From NCBI GenBank assembly GCA_905480575.1, contig CAJQQZ010000083.1, forward strand, positions 1-33,809: DNA of 33,809 nt, read 5' to 3'. Each line of letters begins with the position of its first letter. Positions within the stretch are counted from its first letter, which is position 1. The translations under genes and the position numbers were made by a program. The stretch is from an uncultured Alphaproteobacteria bacterium (lineage in GTDB: Bacteria > Pseudomonadota > Alphaproteobacteria > UBA7985 > CAJQQZ01). Below the pieces are notes generated by a model. It was not told the origin of the DNA. It saw nothing but the letters and a program-made list of their open reading frames with translations, and ran no database searches. Below, piece by piece: positions 27,302 to 33,278 of this stretch.

Positions 27302-28486
27302 CTAAGTTTTGGAAGTTCCGGCTCGTTCAATGTCAGCAATCAAATCGTCCGGCGCTTCCAACCCAATAGACAGCCTCAATAGATTGTCTGTAATGCCACA
27401 AATCTCTCTATCTTCGCCGGTTAGGGTGCGATGAGTGGTGGTGGCAGGGTGGGTCGCCAAAGTTTTAGAATCGCCGAGATTGTTGGAAATTTTGATGATT
27501 TGCAGATTGTTCAAGAATTTGAATGCCTCTGCTTTTCCGCCCTTAACGCGCAACGTCAGAAGTGAGCCCCCGGATTTCATCTGGGACTGAGCTAATGAAA
27601 ATTGAGGGTGGGAGGATAAACCAGGATAAGAGACCTTTTCTGTAAAAGGCATAGCCTCCAGCGCAGTAGCGATCTTAGCCGTTGTGGACGACATACGATC
27701 GACGCGCAGATCTAATGTTTCCAGAGATTTGGCCAGAACCCATGCATTGAACGGGCTCATGGCTGGCCCGGCATGACGCACAAAGGGTTGGAGTTTTTCT
27801 TTGAAAAAGTCGTTTGAACAGAGAACAGCACCGCCAAGGCAACGCCCCTGACCGTCAATGTGCTTGGTCGCGGAATAGACGACAACGTCGGCTCCGAGGT
27901 TTTTTGCATTCTGTACTGCAGGGGAAGCAAAGGCGTTATCAACAACAAAACAAGCATCCGCCTGCTTTGCCAACCGAGCAACGCCGGCGATGTCGACTAA
28001 AGCGAGTGTCGGGTTGGCTGGGCTTTCACAGAAGAACAATGCCGTGTTGGGGCGAATGGCTGCTTCCCAGGCGGCCAGATCAGCGCCATCAACTAAGGTG
28101 AACTCGACACCGAACCTCGGCAAGATCGATGTGATCACCTGTAAGCAAGATCCAAAGAGAACCTGTGACGCAACGACGTGATCGCCAGCCTTTAGTTGGC
28201 AAGTGAGGGCGGAGTAAACCGCTGCCATACCGCTGGCTGTGGCAAAGCAAGTCTCCGTGCCTTCCAACTCAGCCATCCGTTGTTCAAACAGACCGACCGT
28301 GGGATTGCCATAGCGCGAATAGATGAAGCCGTCGTCTTCGCCCTTGAAACGCGCTTCAGCTTGTTCAGCACTCTCATAAACAAAACCCGAGGTCAGATAG
28401 AGCGCCTCCGCTGTCTCGCCGAATTGGGAGCGTTCTAGTCCACCGTGGATTAATGCTGTTTCAGCAGCCAATTTTCTTTCGCTCAT
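27302..28486 (-). CDS. metZ: O-succinylhomoserine sulfhydrylase
   Basis: A 394-residue PLP enzyme of the Cys/Met metabolism family. The Schiff-base Lys208 stands in VVYSATKHIDGQGR, and SRYGNPTV, FCESPANPTL and VDNAFASP are family blocks. The GQGRCLGGAVL and SIGLEAPDDLIADIERA features fit MetZ, which joins sulfide to O-succinylhomoserine to give homocysteine; cystathionine gamma-synthase is the main alternative. Its start overlaps the fpr stop (ATGA). In the operon it uses the sulfide produced by CysI, so methionine synthesis by direct sulfhydrylation is the likely route. Confidence 0.92.
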   Translation of the reverse strand: MSERKLAAETALIHGGLERSQFGETAEALYLTSGFVYESAEQAEARFKGEDDGFIYSRYGNPTVGLFEQRMAELEGTETCFATASGMAAVYSALTCQLKAGDHVVASQVLFGSCLQVITSILPRFGVEFTLVDGADLAAWEAAIRPNTALFFCESPANPTLALVDIAGVARLAKQADACFVVDNAFASPAVQNAKNLGADVVVYSATKHIDGQGRCLGGAVLCSNDFFKEKLQPFVRHAGPAMSPFNAWVLAKSLETLDLRVDRMSSTTAKIATALEAMPFTEKVSYPGLSSHPQFSLAQSQMKSGGSLLTLRVKGGKAEAFKFLNNLQIIKISNNLGDSKTLATHPATTTHRTLTGEDREICGITDNLLRLSIGLEAPDDLIADIERAGTSKT

Positions 28487-29256: not shown

Positions 29257-29697
29257 TTATTCGTTGGTCGCAATGGATTGAGCCAAGGCTCGTTCTTGCC
29301 AGATTGAAGGAATGTTGGAGTGGACCTTACCTTCCACATAGGTTTTGTCGACGGACATTTCCACCGCTGTTTGCCAGGCTGATGCGCTTTGTCTCACAAC
29401 AAGTTCCTCGGACAGCAAGATTTCGTCGAAACCCGTTTGAAAACAAAGCCTTGCGTGGTCAGGAGTCAGTCCGCCGCTGGCTATAAGCTTCAACTCAGGG
29501 GCAAATTGCTTAAGGCGCTTGGCAAAAGAAAAACCACGCCCATCGTGGGGGCCAGAGAAGGAGATAATCACCGACTGTCCAGTTTGCGCGATGTGCTCAA
29601 GATCGCCATCAAAACTCTCAGGCGTCACACGATTAGCAGTGATCAATTCCGAAGAATCAATCGGTAGCCAAGAGCCATCTTTTTTAAGCAGCCACAT
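29257..29697 (-). CDS. DUF934 family protein of the sulfite-reduction operon
   Basis: A 146-residue protein matching the DUF934 family, commonly found beside cysI and cysH in alpha- and other proteobacteria. Typical parts are the N-terminal LLKKDGSWLPID, the barrel-like FSGPHDGRGFSFAKRLK block and GFDEILLSEE. The biochemical role is not established; a part in sulfite reduction is inferred from its constant position. Its ATG lies 14 bases inside the cysI reading frame, so translation should be coupled. Confidence 0.85.
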   Translation of the reverse strand: MWLLKKDGSWLPIDSSELITANRVTPESFDGDLEHIAQTGQSVIISFSGPHDGRGFSFAKRLKQFAPELKLIASGGLTPDHARLCFQTGFDEILLSEELVVRQSASAWQTAVEMSVDKTYVEGKVHSNIPSIWQERALAQSIATNE

Positions 29698-31324
29698 AAA
29701 CCGCCTCCCTGAATGCTGCTTTACCGAGCCGCCGGTAGGTTTGATTGAAGCTTTCGCCTTCTTGCTTTGAGCCGATGTAAAAATCTAAAATACGGTCTAT
29801 GGCGCCTGGTATCTCCGACTGAGCAAAGCCTGGCCCAAGAATTCCTCCGACGGATGCATTGTCATTGGAGCTGCCGCCGAGGGTGATTTGATAGCTTTCC
29901 GTTTCAGCTCGGTTCAGGCCTAGAATACCGATGGATGCCGCGTGATGATGACCACAGGCATTGATACAGCCCGAAATGTTGAGCGTTAGACCTGAGAGAT
30001 CGTCTCGTTTCTCCCTTTCCCGCAACTGGGTGCTGAGTTCCTGTGCAACTGGAATAGAGCGGGCGGTGGCCAGTGCGCAATAGTCGAGACCAGGGCAAGC
30101 GATGATATCACTCAGTTGTCCAATGTTGTCCTCGGCTAATCCTTGTTTTACCAGCGCCTCATGTAGTGCCGCGAAATCTTTTGCAGCGACAGATGGTAGA
30201 ACGATGTTTTGCCGATGCGTGACGCGCAACTCGCCCTGTGAGTAGCGATCCGCCAAATCGGCCAAAGCATACATTTGCTCAGCCGTCGCATCGCCGGGAA
30301 TGCCGCCTTTCGGCTTTAGCGAGATAGAAACCACTCCGTAGCCAGGCACTTTATGGCTCGTGACGTTCTGCTTTATCCAACTGGCCAATGCAGGAGGGTT
30401 ATCGCCGTTCGAGGCAGATGGTAGGGGTGTGAGATCAGATTGCTCAAAGTCTTTGGCAATACGGTGGTATTCTGCGACCGCTGGTTCAAAAGGCTCCAAG
30501 GATTGCAGTGCTAAATCCTCCTCCACATCGCGTCGGTAATTCTCGAGGCCATATTCAGCGACAAGGATTTTGATCCTGGCTTTGTATTTATTGTCCCGGC
30601 GACCATGAAGGTTGTAGACGCGCAGCATTGAGTCCAGCTTTGGGAGCAGCTCAGAAAGGGGGACATTGTCCTCGAACAGAACGGCGATCCGAGGCGTGCG
30701 GCCTTGACCACCACCGACCCAAATCTCATAGGCGGGATTGTCATCAACGCCTGGCTTAACCTTCAAGCCGATATCGTGGAATTTGAGCGCTGTTCTGTCT
30801 TCGGCGGCTCCAGTCACTGCGAACTTGAATTTACGCGGCAGGTAGGCGAATTCGGGATGCAGCGAGGACCATTGGCGCAACAATTCAGCCGTGGGTCTCG
30901 GGTCGATCCATTCATCGCCAGCAACACCTGCAAAAGGATCAGAGGTTACGTTACGGATGCAATTGCCAGAGGTTTGGATGGCGTGCATCTGCACCTCTGC
31001 CAAGTGATCCAGCATGTCGGGTATATCTATCAGCTTGGGCCAATTGTACTGAATGTTCTGACGTGTCGTGAAATGACCATAGCCACGGTCATACTTCTCA
31101 GCCAGGAAAGCAAGCTTGCGCATTTGGTCCGCCGACAGCGTGCCATAAGGGATCGCCACGCGCAGCATGTAAGCGTGAAGCTGGAGATAGACGCCGTTCA
31201 TCAAGCGCATAGGCTTGAACTCATCTTCGCTCAGCTTACCCGTAATACGGCGTTCGACCTGGTCACGGAACTCTCGTGATCGCGCTTCAACAAAGGCTTG
31301 GTCATGACTGTCGTAGTTGTACAT
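29684..31324 (-). CDS. cysI: Sulfite reductase hemoprotein (CysI/Sir type)
   Basis: A 546-residue siroheme protein reducing sulfite to sulfide. The four cysteines for the siroheme-linked 4Fe-4S cluster are at C410 and C416 (ACPGLDYCALA) and C453 and C457 (ISGCINACGHHH). Both halves of the pseudo-duplicated fold show the substrate-binding patterns GHFTTRQNIQYNW near the N-terminus and LRVTHRQNIVLP in the second half. The reductant is probably ferredoxin reduced by the Fpr encoded two genes downstream. A nitrite reductase is the main alternative, but the metZ/cysG/DUF934 setting supports sulfite. Confidence 0.93.
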   Translation of the reverse strand: MYNYDSHDQAFVEARSREFRDQVERRITGKLSEDEFKPMRLMNGVYLQLHAYMLRVAIPYGTLSADQMRKLAFLAEKYDRGYGHFTTRQNIQYNWPKLIDIPDMLDHLAEVQMHAIQTSGNCIRNVTSDPFAGVAGDEWIDPRPTAELLRQWSSLHPEFAYLPRKFKFAVTGAAEDRTALKFHDIGLKVKPGVDDNPAYEIWVGGGQGRTPRIAVLFEDNVPLSELLPKLDSMLRVYNLHGRRDNKYKARIKILVAEYGLENYRRDVEEDLALQSLEPFEPAVAEYHRIAKDFEQSDLTPLPSASNGDNPPALASWIKQNVTSHKVPGYGVVSISLKPKGGIPGDATAEQMYALADLADRYSQGELRVTHRQNIVLPSVAAKDFAALHEALVKQGLAEDNIGQLSDIIACPGLDYCALATARSIPVAQELSTQLREREKRDDLSGLTLNISGCINACGHHHAASIGILGLNRAETESYQITLGGSSNDNASVGGILGPGFAQSEIPGAIDRILDFYIGSKQEGESFNQTYRRLGKAAFREAVYVAA

Positions 31325-31335
31325 GCCGATCTGTC

Positions 31336-31659
31336 CTAGGCTGCGAGATCGTGAGAAAAAGAGGGAGCACCGTAGGCGATGGATGGACCCTTCACCCGAC
31401 GGCGTTCTCTCAATTCCACGGGAGTGATGGCGGCGGCGTTTTGCTGGACCGGTGTCAGGTATGCGCCAACGACTTCGTTAGCACGCTCGGACGAAGTGCC
31501 GATCTCGGCAAATGCTTCTGTCTCATCGTTGGAGATTAGTGATGCTTTCGCGAGAGTGTCCGTCCAGCTGTTTTCTCTTGACCAGAAGACGACGTCGCCA
31601 GTGGTTAGTTCGTTTGCGGTTAAGATGTATGAGAGGTCAGATTTGATTTTCTTAGCCAT
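31336..31659 (-). CDS. DUF2849 family small protein
   Basis: A 107-residue protein from ATG 31659, two bases after the stop of the cysG-like gene. The open frame extends upstream through that gene, but MAKKIKSDLSYILTANELTTGDVVFW is the normal N-terminus of DUF2849, a family typical of alphaproteobacterial cys operons between cysG and cysI. The C-terminus RRRVKGPSIAYGAPSF is also characteristic. Function unknown; a role with sulfite reductase is inferred from position only. It is 11 bp before cysI. Confidence 0.85.
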   Translation of the reverse strand: MAKKIKSDLSYILTANELTTGDVVFWSRENSWTDTLAKASLISNDETEAFAEIGTSSERANEVVGAYLTPVQQNAAAITPVELRERRRVKGPSIAYGAPSFSHDLAA

Positions 31660-31661
31660 GA

Positions 31662-32666
31662 TTACGCGGCTTCCTTGTGAATAAGGGGTGAAGGGGAGGT
31701 AATTGGGGTAACTGAGGCGGTCGCAACGCCAGGAATGACCTGTGCCGCTATACCTCGATCCAACAGAAGGCTCAGTTCGTCCAAATGGCTGGAGTGACGT
31801 GAACCACGGACTGAAACCACTTGTTGGCCGGATGAGGCCTGTTCCAAGGTCAAAGCAGTACGGTCGTAGGCAGGAGCAAGAATGAGAGTGGCCTCGCGAC
31901 GACACAGCTCTAAAACTGTGCCGGGCGTTTCCGTGTCGTACAAAACCACATCTGCTTGATCCAAAGCCTTGCGGGCTTTGAGAGTTAACAATTCTGGGTC
32001 GCTATTGCTGGCAGAAATGAAAGATACGAAACCGTTTTCTGGCTCTGAATGCTCACCTTCGATGTCCTGTGCCAGTTCGATCAAAGCGCTGGTTGAAGTG
32101 GTTTGCTGGCGGCGAGCGCCCTCGAATAATTTGTTCCAGAAGGTTCTTCTCGCTCTACCCGGCGCGATATGTTTGGCCGCCCAAGGTCTGAGCTTATTGG
32201 CCGCTGTCGCGATCAGGCCCAGCCCGGGTTCCAACAGGCTTTCAACAGAGGCCTTGATTTGGCGCGACAATACCGGGGCGGTTCCCTCTGTGCCGATGGC
32301 AACGATGACAGGATCACGGTCGACGATAGCAGGGGTTGAGAAATCGCTGACACTTGGTTGATCGACAGCACAAACAATGACGCCAGCGGCCCGGCAGCTG
32401 TCGGCTAGCGCGCGGTCAAGCCGTTGATCACCGGTGGCTGCAAAAGCGAAAGCAGTATTTTCAGGCAGAGCGAAATTGGTCGGCTCTGATTTGACCCAGG
32501 TCGCATGGCCAAGCTCTAAAACATCTCTATCCAAGTGTTCAGCGACGACCAGCACGTTGGCACAAGTCTTGAGAACCAACCGGAGCTTCGCCGCAGCGTC
32601 AGCCCCACCGCCAAAAACGATGATGGTCTTGTCTTCTACGCTCAGAAAGATCGGAAAGGCTTTCAC
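31662..32666 (-). CDS. cysG: Siroheme synthase-like protein with intact precorrin-2 dehydrogenase and degenerate, shortened methyltransferase half
   Basis: A 334-residue protein. The N-terminal part (1 to about 190) is a CysG/Met8-type precorrin-2 dehydrogenase and ferrochelatase: FGGGADAAAKLRL at 18-30, VDQPSVSDFSTPAIVDRDP with the likely catalytic Asp102, and GTEGTAPVLSR at 125-135. The C-terminal part (about 213-334) resembles only the first half of the uroporphyrinogen III methyltransferase domain (SDPELLTLKARKALDQADVVLYD; ends near VIPGVATAS). Its GxGPGDP loop has become SASNSDP and the GGDPxxFGRGGEE loop RGSRHSSHLDE, so methyl transfer is not expected. Full CysG is about 457 residues. 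It starts the sulfur operon. Confidence 0.85.
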   Translation of the reverse strand: MKAFPIFLSVEDKTIIVFGGGADAAAKLRLVLKTCANVLVVAEHLDRDVLELGHATWVKSEPTNFALPENTAFAFAATGDQRLDRALADSCRAAGVIVCAVDQPSVSDFSTPAIVDRDPVIVAIGTEGTAPVLSRQIKASVESLLEPGLGLIATAANKLRPWAAKHIAPGRARRTFWNKLFEGARRQQTTSTSALIELAQDIEGEHSEPENGFVSFISASNSDPELLTLKARKALDQADVVLYDTETPGTVLELCRREATLILAPAYDRTALTLEQASSGQQVVSVRGSRHSSHLDELSLLLDRGIAAQVIPGVATASVTPITSPSPLIHKEAA

Positions 32667-32825: not shown

Positions 32826-33278
32826 TTGGTTGATGATCTGGATCGGAAAATTTTACGCGTCATACAGCGTGATAACTCCCTCGCATTGGAAGAAATCGCC
32901 GAAAAAGTAGGCTCTTCGAAGTCCCCAGTGTGGAACCGCATCAAAAAATTGAAAGCCAACGGCATCATTGCCAAAGAAGTTGCCTTGTTAGATGCCGACC
33001 AACTCGGCCTGACCGACACCTTCTTCGTCGCCATTCGCACCGATCAACATTCCGCAGAATGGTCCAAAGCCTTCGCGGAAACATTGGCCGACATGGACGA
33101 AATCCAGGAAGCCCACCGCCTAACCGGAGAAATCGACTACATTTTGAAGGTCAGAGTAGGCAACACCCGAGAATTCGACGCCTTCTACAAACGCTTCATC
33201 GGACGCATCAACCTGTTCAATGTGACGTCAAGCTTGTCGATGGAGACAATGAAGGAGACGACGGCGTTGAAGATTTGA
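32826..33278 (+). CDS. Lrp/AsnC family transcriptional regulator
   Basis: A 150-residue regulator with an N-terminal helix-turn-helix (LDRKILRVIQRDNSLALEEIAEKVGSSKSPVWNRIKKLKANGII, about 5-48) and a C-terminal ligand-binding RAM domain (about 68-140; the HRLTGEIDYILKV block). It starts with TTG 32826, backed by GGAGG nine bases upstream; no ATG in frame gives a full helix-turn-helix. It is divergent from the seven-gene sulfur operon across a 159-bp gap with a palindrome, so it most likely senses an amino acid such as cysteine or methionine and controls that operon. Its third codon positions are noticeably C-rich compared with its neighbours. Confidence 0.92.
   Translation: MVDDLDRKILRVIQRDNSLALEEIAEKVGSSKSPVWNRIKKLKANGIIAKEVALLDADQLGLTDTFFVAIRTDQHSAEWSKAFAETLADMDEIQEAHRLTGEIDYILKVRVGNTREFDAFYKRFIGRINLFNVTSSLSMETMKETTALKI

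Follow-up and report, generated by a model that had tools for sequence, protein, structure and literature searches.

A remnant methyltransferase lobe as a probable active-site donor in short siroheme synthases of Alphaproteobacteria

The siroheme synthase (CysG) encoded in the window, the whole 33,809 bp stretch of DNA from an uncultured alphaproteobacterium that was analysed here, carries a fused uroporphyrinogen III methyltransferase (SUMT) domain that has been reduced to its first lobe. It is likely that this SUMT remnant has been domesticated as an active-site donor for the neighbouring dehydrogenase/chelatase. On a wider scale, repeated destruction of the methyltransferase has probably taken place in two or more classes of Pseudomonadota, with the arginine helix of the lobe nearly always spared; the remnant would then be a new functional element, and the CysG fusion one that could mostly be undone only in part. 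The gene and the parts of its product are as follows.

31662..32666, minus strand: short siroheme synthase gene (cysG), 334 aa, GTG start, TAA stop
32328..32666, minus strand: NAD(P)-binding Rossmann domain, residues 1-113, with D102 (whole profile of NAD_binding_7, PF13241, over residues 6-113)
32109..32327, minus strand: dimerisation/helical part, residues 114-186 (CysG_dimeriser, PF10414, positions 1-37 of 58, over residues 148-184)
31722..32036, minus strand: remnant N-terminal SUMT lobe, residues 211-315, SAM loops lost (Pfam, TIGR01469, alignment and model superposition)
31893..31901, minus strand: R256-R257-E258, aligned with Salmonella R260-R261-D262 (sequence alignments)
31665..31721, minus strand: tail of low conservation, residues 316-334, at the place where a second lobe would start (27.7% mean pairwise identity within the order)

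Residues 3-333 match residues 3-349 of the 457 of Salmonella CysG with E = 8.8e-39 (PDB sequence alignment), so that homology between the two proteins is far beyond chance, and the first residue coincides with the start of the alignment in relatives of the order. The earlier note on this DNA, made from the sequence alone, described a clean frame ending two bases before the next gene; this is exact, bases 31661-31660 lying between the cysG stop and the ATG (31659-31657) of a DUF2849 gene. A sequencing error or frameshift, which that note had also discounted, was rejected since all 11 genomes of the order that were examined (three families, three genera) have the short form, in open frames of 342-373 aa. 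Full-length CysG occurs in Rhodobacterales (L038-L040; open frames of 466, 480 and 492 aa).

The dehydrogenase/chelatase (CysG^B) part had been called intact, and this was borne out. The cysG_Nterm model TIGR01470 matches residues 4-188 with 165.8 bits, above its cut-off of 62.3, and mean identity within the order is 62.8% over this part. D102 corresponds to the catalytic D104 of Salmonella CysG, which is kept in all 75 short and all 40 full-length CysGs compared. Alignment to the Salmonella protein shows that the pocket residues K27, D102, P131, R135, R160, R173 and W177 (Salmonella K27, D104, P133, R137, R162, R175 and W179) are kept, as are the equivalents of R260 and R261, with Glu standing for D262. 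Five further pocket positions are changed (N101 to C, S128 to T, R140 to K, K166 to A and M172 to G), which counts against an active-site donor.

The window protein shares the domain order of trifunctional CysG from Salmonella and E. coli (NF007922; PDB 1PJQ, 6P5X) up to the first SUMT lobe; it differs in having neither the second lobe nor the SAM loops and would be bifunctional at most. Its TP_methylase match covers profile positions 4-124 of 212 (Pfam), the SUMT model TIGR01469 is matched over positions 1-134 of 238 with 49.4 bits (cut-off 185), and the trifunctional model NF007922 over positions 2-351 of 450 with 250.3 bits (cut-off 400). The first SAM loop reads SASNSDP where full-length relatives have GAGPGDP, and the second is RGSRHSS plus a gap in place of K(G/S)GDPxxFGR. 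A methyltransferase part of about half length with replaced loops, as first described, was thus found. With the SAM loops and the second lobe gone, the protein should not methylate: to judge from its sequence, the lobe should have lost both SAM binding and any action on uroporphyrinogen III.

In an AlphaFold model based on four sequences, those of the window protein and L038-L040, residues 210-315 superpose on residues 214-331 of CysG (6pr0_B) with Z 17.2 and 1.8 Å over 106 residues, from which it appears that one whole lobe was kept and the other lost. The model is a low-confidence monomer with a mean pLDDT of 56.4; values range from 53 to 84 across ten blocks of residues 211-310, reaching at least 70 in seven of the ten and 62 in the block with the motif, and fall below 50 for residues 313-334. 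Since the pocket is built by two subunits, a monomer model cannot show R256 in place.

Mean identity within the order is 43.1% for the half domain, 28.1% for the linker and 27.7% for the tail. CysG^B has a dN/dS ratio (Nei-Gojobori) of 0.155 in the closest pair (L010-L011), and the half domain one of 0.139. Nine of ten pairs gave an estimate, and over these the ratio ranges from 0.06 to 0.16 for CysG^B and from 0.14 to 0.33 for the half domain, rough ratios given that dS of both main parts exceeds 1.2 in every estimated pair other than L010-L011. Purifying selection acts on the half domain, for the most part less strongly than on CysG^B, and hardly at all on the tail. That the half domain is a decaying pseudo-domain, drifting away after a neutral truncation, is accordingly scarcely credible. 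The SAM loops are gone, some lineages have been trimmed much further, and the tail and linker change rapidly (dN/dS as high as 0.83 and 0.89, respectively), all of which would fit decay; the ratios for the half domain itself do not, nor does the maintenance of the short form across three families of the order, and the concentration of conservation at R256-R257 contradicts drift for the motif.

The position of that motif has a precedent. In Salmonella CysG, the residues that line the dehydrogenase/chelatase pocket include three from the SUMT module: R260, which binds the acetyl group on ring C of the tetrapyrrole, R261, which contributes charge, and D262, which lies above the ring (Pennington et al. 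2020, PMC7018833). According to the same account, the R260A protein had a dehydrogenase activity of 0 (parent 47.4) and a chelatase activity of 3.1 (parent 203), about 1.5%, and the R261A protein retained 1.4 and 13.6, respectively; both lost activity without gross change to the structure. A possible benefit of the CysG fusion, in the view of Pennington et al., is that the methyltransferase module lends residues to its neighbour (PMC7018833). In the window protein the lobe would have been retained because one helix carries the two arginines and the acid of the pocket. Against this stands Met8p, which works without the R260/R261/D262 segment (PMC7018833); the motif is thus no general need of the fold.

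Conservation was ranked, with sequence weighting, over the 129 positions from 206 to 334, none of them chosen beforehand. R256 ranks first of the 129 in 73 remnants (weighted conservation 1.00) and 92nd in CobA, the stand-alone SUMT; A259 (0.93), R257 (0.92) and L227 (0.91) come next in the remnants. Thirty-three positions are about 97% or more conserved in 40 full CysGs, and only R256, R257, A259 and L227 among them stay at 90% or above in the remnants. The SAM-loop positions 218, 220, 221, 222 and 287, invariant in full CysG, have fallen to ranks 35 to 100.

Such a pattern bears on whether the half domain might be a folding or dimer scaffold only, its arginines serving in packing or salt bridges and not in tetrapyrrole binding. 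The hydrophobic or small lobe positions L227, A238, A259 and G280 are also kept, and the lobe as modelled appears to match the first lobe of a complete SUMT, as a scaffold would. We nevertheless regard a scaffold as unlikely. It leaves unexplained why charged residues absent from CobA should be the most conserved; many remnants have been trimmed further and still have R260; and the Salmonella R260A and R261A proteins keep their structure while losing activity (PMC7018833). The earlier guess, that the half domain may be structural, is to be refined: the comparative evidence points to a more specific role, that of the pocket-lining R260-R261-D/E262 helix.

If the lobe is kept for the pocket, the motif should outlast the SAM loops, and the opposite pattern is expected of stand-alone methyltransferases. 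Both SAM loops were present in 40/40 full CysGs, 38 of which have RR[DE]. Stand-alone CobA proteins (n = 66) have both loops in 64 cases and RR[DE] in none, with Arg at the position of R260 in 18. In short or degenerate CysGs (n = 75) both loops were found once; Arg is present at 260 in 73 and RR[DE] in 65. A control set of 20 lower-scoring full CysGs gave both loops in 19/20, R260 in 19/20 and RR[DE] in 17/20. Pooled, the full CysGs have R260 in 58/60 and the exact RR[DE] in 55/60, much like the short forms.

Short forms were defined by the presence of CysG^B together with a match to profile A1 ending before position 430. This takes in L090, which has no second lobe and both SAM loops, and L107 (G171, open frame 851-2173), a protein of 440 aa that matches the profile to 423 of 454 and has no SAM loops; R-R-E is kept in L107. 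Sequences identical over the last 120 residues were counted once, and four contig-edge proteins (L126, L127, L128 and L131), eight other tetrapyrrole methylases and five proteins of 189-236 aa without a SUMT region were left out of the counts. The 40 full CysGs were largely the best-scoring ones; the 20 lower-scoring sequences were added later as a control and gave the weaker result. The CobAs were for the most part the top matches to a profile derived from CysG, a choice that if anything makes the motif more likely to turn up. Since the search profiles A1 and A3 include the columns of the motif, forms without it may be harder to find; L119, L120 and the five proteins without SUMT were found all the same, and such forms are thus not excluded by the profiles.

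Ten short forms depart from RR[DE]. Seven read R-A-D (L029, L114, L115, L116, L118, L226 and L227, all of family f15) and one R-S-E (L123), so that R261 is dispensable in places, a point against the donor role. In the remaining two (L119 and L120, 2/75) the SUMT remnant is wholly gone, which also counts against it; the L119 genome has a full CysG as well, and the L120 genome has no other CysG among the matches listed. The seven R-A-D proteins carry Ala for the platform Pro133; another member of the family, L223, has Ala at this position and keeps R-R-D. Judged by sequence, R-A-D with Pro133 to Ala is perhaps a coupled pocket change that goes with a changed metal step. The five full CysGs without the exact motif (5/60) read KRE (L129 and L244), RPE (L198), RKD (L240) and RSE (L248). 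L129 (G164) and L244 (G250), of family f38, are full-length with both SAM loops, and each of their genomes has another CysG match.

Siroheme would require a separate uroporphyrinogen III methyltransferase, as first proposed, and a search for cobA found one: the window genome encodes a stand-alone CobA (C38:14844-15557) that scores 289 bits against the SUMT cut-off of 185. It lies in a cobalamin cluster with CbiX, CbiC, CbiE-CbiT, CobI, a CbiG-CobJ fusion, CobM, CobB and CbiB. The earlier reading is supported in part (no break, no methylation, a separate CobA), its structural role being the point that is refined. A SUMT match above the cut-off was present outside the short gene in 43 of the 46 short-form genomes searched, all 46 from outside the second class described below, and in 9/11 genomes of the order. 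The three without one are G008 (79% complete), G010 (72%) and G116 (99%). Being 99% complete, G116 is a real exception and counts against the proposed scheme. A siroheme-type reductase match adjoins the short CysG (L113) in G116. Short and full CysG occur in one genome in G078, G287 and G364, and each of the three has a further SUMT match, which lies in a shorter frame.

The frequent company of CobA would also be expected if the remnant were a docking surface on which CobA hands over precorrin-2, in effect a split CysG. This we consider very improbable, as identity of the lobe within the order averages only 43% and CobA also occurs alongside full CysG (e.g. in G011, G087 and G380). Truncation, loss of the SAM loops and the presence of a CobA gene, together with selective retention of the motif in separate lineages, are documented at the level of sequence. 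That R256-R257-E258 do in the window protein what their counterparts do in Salmonella, and that CobA supplies the methylation, is what we infer.

CbiX is a class II chelatase and is not known to be homologous to the window cysG product. A two-domain CbiX is encoded in 11/11 genomes of the order, and the chelatase step may thus be shared or lost, which argues against a bifunctional short CysG. Paracoccus-type CbiX, of which the window genome encodes a family member elsewhere, is an alternative terminal enzyme of the siroheme pathway and serves as siroheme ferrochelatase in other alphaproteobacteria (PMC4063343). In the order CbiX may be the siroheme ferrochelatase or a cobaltochelatase for B12, and the short CysG may be mainly a dehydrogenase feeding both. 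It is possible, though the less favoured case, that the short CysG is a dehydrogenase only, that CbiX inserts iron (or cobalt) and that the remnant helps the dehydrogenase. Besides the universal presence of CbiX in the order, its position in the cobalamin cluster with CbiG, CbiE-CbiT and CobA, which looks early-cobalt, speaks for this, as does the observation that R260A hits dehydrogenation hardest (PMC7018833). The equivalents of D104 and P133, both needed for full Salmonella chelatase activity, are kept in the window protein, which points the other way. A dehydrogenase-only enzyme is compatible with a lobe that donates pocket residues; the argument from R260 holds whether the short CysG is dehydrogenase only or also chelatase.

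The region G000:C38:6757-17943 (L228), with the two-domain CbiX, the CbiG-CobJ fusion and CobA, looks like an early-cobalt set. The early-cobalt pathway requires sirohydrochlorin. By way of this intermediate the short CysG is perhaps needed for B12 too.

In the window, the short cysG heads a row of sulfur-assimilation genes comprising DUF2849, reductase, DUF934 and ferredoxin-NADP reductase-like genes, with an Lrp/AsnC-type gene on its other side.

31336..31659, minus strand: DUF2849 gene, 107 aa from the ATG at 31659 (PF11011); adjoins the short cysG in 11/11 loci of the order
29684..31324, minus strand: siroheme-type nitrite/sulfite reductase (PF01077, PF03460); beside the short cysG in 11/11 loci of the order
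29257-29697, minus strand: DUF934 gene, a diverged member with a weak match (32 bits, cut-off 25)
27302-28486, minus strand: PLP enzyme of Cys/Met metabolism, next after the ferredoxin reductase-like gene
32826-33278, plus strand: regulator of Lrp/AsnC type, divergent and upstream of the cysG row; weakly matches a siroheme decarboxylase NirDL-like HTH domain

The nitrite/sulfite reductase is the presumed user of siroheme, and since the PLP enzyme follows the reductase-like gene the row probably extends to sulfide incorporation. The Lrp/AsnC-type regulator may respond to the status of sulfur or siroheme; several relatives likewise have an AsnC-like frame next to cysG.

The short form is not peculiar to the window genome or its order, and recurs in many lineages of the class and in another class. 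At least 40 of the 386 genomes of the class that were drawn have it, among the matches listed; the short forms of the class come from this one draw, the rest of the order and part of a further search. In the other class, presumably Gammaproteobacteria, 20 of the 21 genomes taken have a short form, all with RRD, and one has a full CysG with RPE, these 21 of 397 having been picked only for low profile scores. In these 20 short forms the methyltransferase segment is otherwise difficult to make out.

A tree of the CysG^B part of 115 proteins, from which the remnant columns were left out, implies at least 18 changes between full and short forms; it does not distinguish loss from gain and many of its forks are weak, the starred branches forcing at least five. 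Genomes of the window's class group with the Rhodobacterales in it. Some proteins may mark stages of the process. L090 (G295, open frame 918-2003), in which the second SUMT lobe is gone and both SAM loops are intact, looks from its sequence like a young intermediate of the same truncation, and L091, with SAM loops partly changed, is another possible intermediate. In the order of the window protein the loops have gone, and other lineages are trimmed further still. The distance from R260 to the C-terminus ranges from 24 to 164 residues (median 61), counted in R260-bearing proteins only and hence no test of retention. This suggests an order of events in which the second lobe was lost, then the SAM loops, followed by trimming towards the arginine helix.

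A scheme may be proposed on this basis. The fused methyltransferase domain would have been cut back to its first lobe with the loss of SAM binding and methylation, and methylation of uroporphyrinogen III would fall to the stand-alone CobA of the cobalamin cluster. The R256-R257-E258 helix would make up the rear of the dehydrogenase/chelatase pocket, as a wall that holds the carboxylates of the tetrapyrrole, and the short CysG would oxidise precorrin-2 to sirohydrochlorin and probably insert iron.

Several known systems are related to this arrangement. SirC of Bacillus is not known to have a SUMT segment. Stand-alone CobA/SirA (TIGR01469) has a first lobe homologous to the window remnant; the remnant differs in having neither SAM loops nor a second lobe, and CobA has no R-R-D/E in 66/66. 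Yeast Met8p and Bacillus SirC share a homologous dehydrogenase part and take SUMT from another protein, and Met8p is without R260, R261 and D262 (PMC7018833), whereas the window protein retains a remnant of 105 residues. No account of a remnant SUMT lobe in CysG was found among the titles and abstract starts of the open-licence papers listed from PubMed Central, and one could have been missed.

The short CysGs seem to amount to a natural repeat of the idea of Pennington et al., in which the methyltransferase was given up many times and the arginine helix nearly always stayed. For annotation they carry a warning, as a short 'siroheme synthase' of such a kind is not to be counted as a uroporphyrinogen III methyltransferase. 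They also give a direct and cheap test of why the CysG fusion exists. If the proposal is true, the fusion made both modules interdependent, so that it became mostly only partly reversible, and the remnant would be a clean example of a domain that has outlived its own function by serving its neighbour.
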